Shown here piece after piece: positions 51,139 to 53,875 of a stretch of DNA of 61,247 nucleotides (position 1 is the stretch's first letter; each line of letters opens with the position of its first letter). Under the pieces are notes generated by a model. That model was given only the letters and a program-made list of their open reading frames with translations, ran no database searches and was not told the origin of the DNA. Position numbers and translations under genes: made by a program. Where the stretch lies: the NCBI GenBank assembly GCA_018334565.1, contig JAGXLU010000001.1, positions 1 to 61,247 of the forward strand, given 5' to 3'. This stretch comes from Halanaerobiales bacterium. GTDB taxonomy: Bacteria; Bacillota; Halanaerobiia; Halanaerobiales; M55B127.

Positions 51139-51218
51139 GGATAATTTCCTCCTGCTACATAGAATAATAACATATCTTAAAGGCTGTGACAATAAACGAA
51201 TAGTTTTAAATAAATAAA

Positions 51219-51250
51219 AGCCTTACTATCCTTTTATGAATAGTAAGGCT
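51219..51250 (-). terminator. Terminator downstream of ispH-S1
   Basis: AGCCTTACTAT/ATAGTAAGGCT stem followed by TTTATTTATTT on the minus strand. Confidence 0.8.
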
Positions 51251-51276
51251 CGCTTATTTAAGCATTTGTTTTACAG

Positions 51277-53745
51277 CTATTCTTCATCTTTATCAAAAAT
51301 ATCTCCGACTAGTTCTTGGATTGTAGTTCCAGAAGATTGTTCTTCTTCTTTATTTTCCGATTCCTTATTTTTGGTGGTTTTTTTGTTTTCTTTCTTCGCT
51401 TTTTTTGCATTCATTTCTTCTTCTATACTTTTTAGGCTTAATCCGATTCTTCTCTGCTCTGGATCTATATTAATGATTTTTGCTTTTCTTTCTTCGCCTT
51501 CTTCGACTATTTCATCAGGGGTTTCAACATGTTTTTGGGATAATTGTGAGATATGGATTAATCCTTCAATTCCTTCTGCAACCTCCATAAATGCTCCAAA
51601 ATCAACTATTTTAGTTATTTTACCATCTATTTTTTCACCTTCATAATGTTTTCTGGCGAATTCTTCCCAGGGATCTGGCAGTAATTGTTTTAAACCCAAT
51701 GATATTCTTTCTTCTTCTTTATTAACACCGAGTACTTTTACCTCTACTTCTTGACCTTCTTCTAATATTTCGGTAGGATGATCAATTCTTCCCCAGGACA
51801 TTTCGGATATATGAAGTAGACCTTCAATTCCGCCCAAATCTATAAAGGCACCAAAATCTACCAGTTTTGTTACCGTGCCATTTACTACATCGCTTTCTTC
51901 TAAATTATCTAAAGTTTCTTTTTTACTTTCTGCTCTTTCAGCTTCAATTACTTTTTTAGCAGATAAAACTACATTATTTTTATCTCTTTCAACCTCAATT
52001 ATTTTTAATCTCAAAGTTTGATTGACATATTCACTTAGATCTTCTACATATCCTACTGCTACATGTGAAGCAGGAATGAAACCTCTTACTCCAACATCTA
52101 CAACTAAACCACCTTTTACTTCTTTTGTAACCTCCGCCTCAATAATTTTATCATCTTCGTAGGCTTCTATGATTTTTTCCCAGGCTTTTTCATAATCTGC
52201 CTTTTTCTTCGAAAGAATCATATTACCTTCTTCATTTTCCAAAGTTAAAATAACTACTTCAATATCCTGATCTTCTTCGACAAAATCACGTGGGTCTTTA
52301 ATAGAACGGTGGTTCAATTCATCCTTAGGAATAAACCCATCAGTTTTATAACCAACATCTACATATACTCCATCATCATTTATTTCTACTACAGTACCCG
52401 TTACTTTTTGACCTTTTTTAAGATCTGCAATATCATTGTCACTGTAGTTAAATTCATCAATATTACTTTCTTCTTCAGCTTCATCAGCTACTTCTTTTGT
52501 TTTTTCTGCATCTTCTTTTTGCTCAGTTTCGACTGTTTCTTGTTCTTCTTTTACTTCTTCTGTATCTTCTGGTTCTTCTTCGACTACTTCTTCTGTATCT
52601 TCTTGTTGCTCAGTTTCAACAACTTCTTGTTCTTCATCAACTTTTTTATTTTCCTCTTCAGATACCTCTTCTGTTTCTTTTTTAACAGTTTCTTCTTTTG
52701 GTTCTTCACTTTCTTGTCCCGTTTCTTCTAAAACTTCTTGTTCTTCTTTTTCTACCTCTTCTGTATCTTCTTGTTGCTCAGTTTCAGCCTCTTCTTTTTC
52801 TACCTCTTCTTTAACCTCTTCGACTATTTCTTCTGCTTCCTTTTCTACCTCTTCTTCTGTAAGTTCTGGCTGATTAACTTCTTCTTTTTCATTAACATCT
52901 TTTTTCTCTTCAGACATAATTTCCAAGACCTCCTTGATTATCCAGTCAGGGGTCGATGCCCCCGCGGTAACTCCAATTTTATTTACGTTCTTAATTTTAT
53001 CCCAGTTGATTTCATCAACTATTTCTATGTGAAAGGTTGGTGTTTTGGTTTTAGCACAGATCTCGGCTAATCTCTTTGTATTGGCACTATTGTGTCCTCC
53101 AATTACAAACATCGCATCAACCTTTTTTGCTAATTCTCTCGCTTCTCTTTGCCGATTACCGGTCGTATTACAAATAGTATTATATATTTTTAACTCATCC
53201 ACTTTTGGTAAAAGATAACTAATTATTTCTATATATTTTTCATAAGATTGTGTGGTTTGTGCAACCAGGCCTACATAATCCCTTAAAACTATACCTTCGA
53301 AATCTTGAATATTCTCTATAATCTTACCTTTATTATTAGTATGACCATAAATTCCTTTTATTTCTGGATGGTTTTTGTCTCCAAAGATAAAGGTCTGATA
53401 ACCTGTTTTCACCAACTTTTTTGCGTATATATGAGCATTTTTAACAAAAGGACAGGTGGCATCTATTAACTCAAGATTTTTTTCTTTTGCTTTCTCTAAA
53501 ATCTTAGGTTCAATTCCATGTGTTCTGATAATTAGTATACCCTCATCAATTTCATCTAAACTGTCTACAAGATGTACACCCTGTTTTTGCAATTTTTTAA
53601 CAACCTGAGGATTGTGGATTAATGGACCCAATGTATAAACCTTTTTATCAGAACCTTTAACCGCTTTTTGGACTATTTCAATTGCCCTTTTGACTCCAAA
53701 ACAAAAGCCGGCTTCATCCGCAGTTATTATCTCCAGTACCTTCAC
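51277..53745 (-). CDS. ispH: HMB-PP reductase (IspH) fused to ribosomal protein S1-like protein with four S1 domains
   Basis: IspH Cys motifs (GFCFGVKRA, DATCPFV, NTICNTTGNRQRE), Glu-rich linker, four S1 repeats (e.g. VNGTVTKLVDFGAFIDLGGIEGLLHISEMSW). Confidence 0.96.
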   Translation of the reverse strand: MKVLEIITADEAGFCFGVKRAIEIVQKAVKGSDKKVYTLGPLIHNPQVVKKLQKQGVHLVDSLDEIDEGILIIRTHGIEPKILEKAKEKNLELIDATCPFVKNAHIYAKKLVKTGYQTFIFGDKNHPEIKGIYGHTNNKGKIIENIQDFEGIVLRDYVGLVAQTTQSYEKYIEIISYLLPKVDELKIYNTICNTTGNRQREARELAKKVDAMFVIGGHNSANTKRLAEICAKTKTPTFHIEIVDEINWDKIKNVNKIGVTAGASTPDWIIKEVLEIMSEEKKDVNEKEEVNQPELTEEEVEKEAEEIVEEVKEEVEKEEAETEQQEDTEEVEKEEQEVLEETGQESEEPKEETVKKETEEVSEEENKKVDEEQEVVETEQQEDTEEVVEEEPEDTEEVKEEQETVETEQKEDAEKTKEVADEAEEESNIDEFNYSDNDIADLKKGQKVTGTVVEINDDGVYVDVGYKTDGFIPKDELNHRSIKDPRDFVEEDQDIEVVILTLENEEGNMILSKKKADYEKAWEKIIEAYEDDKIIEAEVTKEVKGGLVVDVGVRGFIPASHVAVGYVEDLSEYVNQTLRLKIIEVERDKNNVVLSAKKVIEAERAESKKETLDNLEESDVVNGTVTKLVDFGAFIDLGGIEGLLHISEMSWGRIDHPTEILEEGQEVEVKVLGVNKEEERISLGLKQLLPDPWEEFARKHYEGEKIDGKITKIVDFGAFMEVAEGIEGLIHISQLSQKHVETPDEIVEEGEERKAKIINIDPEQRRIGLSLKSIEEEMNAKKAKKENKKTTKNKESENKEEEQSSGTTIQELVGDIFDKDEE

Positions 53746-53875
53746 CTCCTTCCAAACAACAAAACAAACCTGTATTACACTACCACAATGACGTTAAAAA
53801 ATACTAAATTATAGTCAGTATTAACTGCTCATAGATATTATTAAAATAACATATTTCTTTCTAAAAGGCAAATAT

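Follow-up and report, generated by a model that had tools for sequence, protein, structure and literature searches.

Genes that join the enzyme IspH to ribosomal protein S1 raise the question of how a protein required on the scale of the ribosome and a low-demand enzyme can be supplied from a single reading frame. Such genes also occur in other phyla, among them Fusobacteria, whose fusion carries six S1 repeats. The IspH-RPS1 'Rosetta stone' fusion is already known and has been treated as one protein (Rao et al. 2015, PMC4746011). The C. thermocellum IspH-RPS1 described in that paper bears out the statement of an earlier note on this DNA that such fusions are known in Clostridia. HMBPP reductase activity has been shown for the C. 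thermocellum homologue (PMC4746011); for the protein studied here it is predicted only. The full-length C. thermocellum protein was purified from E. coli with no shorter form mentioned (PMC4746011), and the nickel-column purification, apparently by an N-terminal tag (pET-28a), would not reveal free S1. A term search of the text of PMC4746011 returned no internal start, start codon, Shine-Dalgarno, linker or free S1 product.

Here we analyze an ispH-S1 gene on a stretch of 61,247 nucleotides from a Halanaerobiales bacterium (the window) and compare it with fused, separate and overlapping relatives. Our preferred reading, to which we give a probability of roughly 0.88, is that ispH-S1 is a two-product gene whose predicted products are the IspH-S1 fusion and a free S1 of 546 aa.

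The ispH-S1 gene and its junction

The features of the locus, all on the minus strand, are as follows.

53745..53751, minus: Shine-Dalgarno of ispH, AAGGAGG, 8 nt before CTG; same layout in most Halanaerobiales
51277..53736, minus: ispH-S1 fused reading frame, likely start CTG 53736-53734; 766.8 bits to PRK00087.1/NF000907
52918..53736, minus: IspH (LytB) domain, Pfam LYTB 326 bits; ends AGASTPDWIIKEVLEI directly before the internal Met
52928..52935, minus: internal Shine-Dalgarno AAGGAGGT, covering the K-E-V codons; duplex energy -11.9 kcal/mol
52915..52917, minus: internal start codon ATG of the predicted free S1; ATG in 53/53 class members
51277..52917, minus: predicted free S1, 546 aa; four S1 domains behind an acidic N-terminal stretch of ~150 aa (50% D/E)
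51218..51251, minus: terminator-like hairpin 3' of the S1 stop (consensus scan only), common 3' end of both products

The open reading frame listing places the start of ispH-S1 at GTG 53745, giving an ORF of 822 aa (51277-53745) that exceeds the cut-off of the PRK00087.1/NF000907 equivalog (624 bits) and holds a LytB/IspH domain, an acidic linker and four S1 domains in one frame, as does the PRK00087.1 fusion. It is the same gene, with the same domain order and family, as the fusions of PMC4746011, and differs from them as described there in its long acidic linker. This Glu-rich N-terminal stretch of the window S1 (52468-52917, minus strand, ~150 aa) contains internal repeats and is longer than in most relatives. 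The gene order is cmk, plsC-like acyltransferase, ispH-S1, DUF512 radical-SAM protein and der-like GTPase. No second multi-domain S1 gene was found in the genome, where the remaining matches are single S1 domains of other proteins.

At the 5' end of the gene, positions 53734-53751 of the minus strand read AAGGAGG, 8 nt, CTG GAG ATA, and the listed GTG overlaps the Shine-Dalgarno sequence. From this region of the sequence, the window ispH most likely starts at CTG 53736-53734 rather than at GTG 53745. The aligned ispH start is NTG in 50/51 class members (CTG 31, TTG 10, GTG 1, ATG 8), and in other classes (n=78) it is TTG in 36, GTG in 17 and ATG in 18. Thus ispH starts with CTG, TTG or GTG in 42/51 class genes and with TTG or GTG in 53/78 other genes, in contrast to S1, for which ATG is used with few exceptions; ispH is likely to have a conserved CTG start codon.

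Where the IspH domain ends, the minus strand from 52935 to 52915 reads AAGGAGGTCTTGGAAATTATG (in codons, with flanks, GAC TGG ATA ATC AAG GAG GTC TTG GAA ATT ATG TCT). The Shine-Dalgarno occupies 52935-52928 and the ATG 52917-52915, in frame with the 822-aa ORF, of which the internal Met is residue 277; the Pfam LytB/IspH match covers residues 6-277. Coordinates, frame and domain match all agree with the earlier note, which had placed a full Shine-Dalgarno, about 10 nt and an in-frame ATG at 52917 at the end of IspH. The 546-aa S1-type protein that it expected from this ATG is likewise what translation gives, a predicted product with four S1 domains that begins MSEEKKDVNEKEE. The spacing of 10 nt after GGAGGT is on the long side. 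In the window gene both the Shine-Dalgarno and the start codon therefore lie within the reading frame, at a domain boundary where an internal start makes sense; the frame runs on across the junction, and the upstream stop near the S1 start that marks an overlapping pair is not there. The 61-kb window has a single AAGGAGG-N11-ATG motif where shuffled sequence gives 0.31 on average, weak evidence by itself, and the significance of the pair comes from the comparison of related genes.

Conservation and codon choice at the junction

Fused relatives were drawn from the order and class of the window and from other classes of the phylum, the latter picked by S1 similarity and not by their junction. 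The junctions form two sets, one of 138 non-redundant genes and then 40 more mostly from additional families, for a total of 178 that covers ~83 family-level groups (our own count from group codes). All 138 junctions of the first set pair a start codon (133 ATG, 5 GTG) at codon 16 or 17 after TAGASTP with a Shine-Dalgarno of -10.6 to -13.1 kcal/mol. In the second set the pair lies at codon 17 in 38 and ~10 codons downstream in two (L232 and L237). The conservation across Clostridia and Halanaerobiales homologs that the earlier note had proposed to check is thus found at the same position in 176/178 fused junctions, the other two being the shifted ones. A Shine-Dalgarno of -11 or below precedes the junction ATG in 53/53 class genes and occurs only 4 times elsewhere among 2313 ATGs in all frames. 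From the 5' end of AAGGAGGT to the ATG the distance is 18 nt, or 15 nt where the ATG lies one codon earlier. In 86% of genes the mRNA near the internal start shows less folding than the gene does on average; in the window it is slightly more folded (-5.7 vs -4.5 for the gene mean).

Codon choice separates the constraint on the nucleotides from that on the protein. Codon 11 is GAG, AAG, AGG, TTG or CAG (K/R/E/L/Q) and codon 12 is GAG or GGG (E/G), so that the third base of both is G in 138/138 despite the residue change. Among 29 divergent class members (<80% identical), with gene-level codon use as the yardstick, Glu at codon 12 is GAG in 29/29 against 765/3273 Glu codons gene-wide (23%), and the corresponding AAG figures for Lys at codon 11 are 26/26 and 501/1789. 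All other Glu and Lys columns stay below 80%, the next best being 77% for Glu and 50% for Lys; as the rows of these columns are mutually related, no p-value is given. The same residues could be encoded by AAAGAAGTT, the synonymous counterpart of AAGGAGGT. Thus, the junction Shine-Dalgarno and start are under selection beyond the protein sequence, and a Shine-Dalgarno arising as a side effect of conserved K-E-V is excluded by the codon choice together with the residue changes that retain it.

For the Val at codon 13, which lies within the Shine-Dalgarno (52927-52929 in the window, minus strand), 137 genes use GTT, GTA or GTC; none has GTG, which would lengthen the pairing. GTG is possibly avoided because it could compete as a start or make the Shine-Dalgarno too strong.

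Separate and overlapping genes, and rival explanations

Among 15 ispH genes without S1 behind them, none has a Shine-Dalgarno with ATG or GTG at the position where IspH ends; three, all GC-rich, carry CGGGAGGTC as a result of their codon use, and in one of these a TTG follows. Family f72 has S1 as a gene apart, downstream of ispH and with a start of its own, and its ispH reads CAA/CAG GAA GTT/GTC at these codons. Family f39 (L178-L187, L191; 9 distinct genes) takes a different form. Here ispH stops ~10 codons after K/R-E-V and retains AAGGAGGT or AGGGAGGT (duplex energy -11.9 to -12.5), and S1 starts in another frame at a GTG 9 nt downstream of this Shine-Dalgarno, overlapping the end of ispH. 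No other start with a comparable Shine-Dalgarno was found in the f39 S1 frame. At the level of gene layout, f39 is a natural experiment showing the junction Shine-Dalgarno to be the one that would start S1. In f102 the Shine-Dalgarno and start are displaced downstream both in a fused gene (L232) and in overlapping genes (L182, L192). Taken together, the f39 and f102 forms indicate that the same signal starts S1 whether it is fused in frame or overlaps out of frame.

The overlapping, separate and displaced forms all branch within groups of fused genes in the IspH tree (SH-aLRT ~83-87 at the relevant forks), and this nesting, with its moderate support, suggests splitting of fused genes with the S1 start kept. 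The alternative origin offered by the earlier note, a fusion of two coupled genes that kept the old start, is possible as an origin; the overlapping form that resembles such a pair is instead found nested among fused genes.

A frameshift breaks ispH, the only copy found, in one genome of the same order (G005, one contig; L050:1000-1240), and leaves the junction Shine-Dalgarno/ATG and the S1 frame undamaged. It is either a sequencing error or a real loss, and as a possible sequencing frameshift it was set aside as evidence for independence of S1.

It has been proposed that SD-like sequences within a reading frame slow the ribosome. The junction stretch could accordingly be a translational pause that aids IspH folding, with the ATG merely a conserved Met, and its place exactly at the domain boundary is what such a pause would predict. 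However, the start codon is conserved as a start, with GTG for ATG in 8 genes; in f24 the ATG lies one codon earlier and Leu follows; f39 uses the same Shine-Dalgarno for an S1 gene that is out of frame; and ispH genes without an adjacent S1 are without the pair. We consider a pause improbable. We rate equally low a relic of two coupled genes whose start is unused and whose Shine-Dalgarno is preserved by the K-E-V residues of IspH. In its favor, IspH often has K/E-E-V at this position and some unfused ispH genes retain AAG GAG GTN; but synonymous codons are fixed where 23-28% is expected, residue changes (including Glu to Gly) retain the Shine-Dalgarno, f72, f63 and others have lost it, and the low-GC unfused ispH genes that retain it are those where it still serves S1. 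A chance Shine-Dalgarno/ATG without function, for which it speaks that shuffled sequence could also yield one such pattern in 61 kb, is refuted by the conservation of the pair in 178/178 fused genes, including the two shifted ones, against 0/15 controls with ATG or GTG, and retains a negligible probability. An internal promoter for a separate S1 mRNA was also rejected, a weak consensus scan of the minus strand from the ispH start to the junction having returned no promoter-like site.

Two products from one gene

The two-product reading, first raised in the earlier note, draws its support from the conservation of the junction, the fixed synonymous codons, the absence of the pair in ispH genes without S1 and the use of the Shine-Dalgarno in f39. 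Ribosomes that begin at the ispH start of a single mRNA would make the full IspH-S1 fusion, and others would load separately at the junction AAGGAGGT/ATG to make the free 546-aa S1. The layout would be that of an ispH-rpsA operon from which the intergenic stop is missing and in which the second ribosome-binding site has been kept under selection, and a single gene could in this way give little IspH and a large amount of S1, for which the demand is similar to that for ribosomes.

CTG and TTG are weak start codons, and since ispH usually starts with one of them, free S1 is probably made in larger amount than the fusion, in keeping with a demand for S1 on the scale of the ribosome. Both proteins would be expected to accumulate, with free S1 as the form on the ribosome. 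The optimal Shine-Dalgarno spacing in C. ljungdahlii is 13 nt (PMC6203783); the junction spacing of 18 nt (or 15) exceeds it, so initiation may be moderate. The frame has stayed open across ~83 families while the linker varies, which suggests selection for retention of the fused form as well. A stronger version, in which the Clostridia-like IspH-S1 is mainly a device for free S1, has for us even odds: the internal start would be the source of ribosomal S1, the fusion a minor product of the weak CTG/TTG start, and lineages would switch between nested and overlapping forms by small indels that keep the S1 start.

Bacterial genes with in-frame internal starts and two proteoforms include infB/IF2, clpB and cheA. 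Other in-frame internal starts have been described for the archaeal type I-B Cas11b (PMC11899642) and for the intragenic RpnS antitoxins (PMC10327210). As in all of these, ispH-S1 has an internal Shine-Dalgarno and an in-frame ATG from which a C-terminal protein would be made on the same mRNA. Unlike in those genes, translation from the internal start would give a whole ribosomal protein with a housekeeping role, and what precedes it codes for an unrelated enzyme, so that ispH-S1 behaves as an operon without a stop, and the site is conserved over ~83 family-level groups. The nearest likeness is to overlapping coupled pairs, in which the downstream Shine-Dalgarno lies inside the upstream gene; f39 is exactly such a pair with the same Shine-Dalgarno, whereas in the window no stop lies between the two and the products share frame and C-terminus. 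No published account of an IspH-S1 internal start was found in the open-access literature, which leaves most subscription journals uncovered. As judged from that literature, what is new is that IspH-S1 is an internal-start gene everywhere that the phylum was sampled, and that its junction switches between two forms, nested in frame and overlapping out of frame.

The fusion has served as an example for Rosetta stone inference of functional links, and roles in the stringent response or in Fe/O2 sensing have been proposed on its basis (PMC4746011). Should free S1 be made as well, and be the main form, the fusion would cease to be a sign that S1 on the ribosome has IspH attached, which would weaken that inference. 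The two-product reading would answer how a ribosome-scale protein and a low-demand enzyme share one gene, and it predicts a missed proteoform in many anaerobes. Thus, the internal start changes the understanding of a well-known 'fusion': judged from the sequences compared here, the cells that carry it very probably also make S1 alone.
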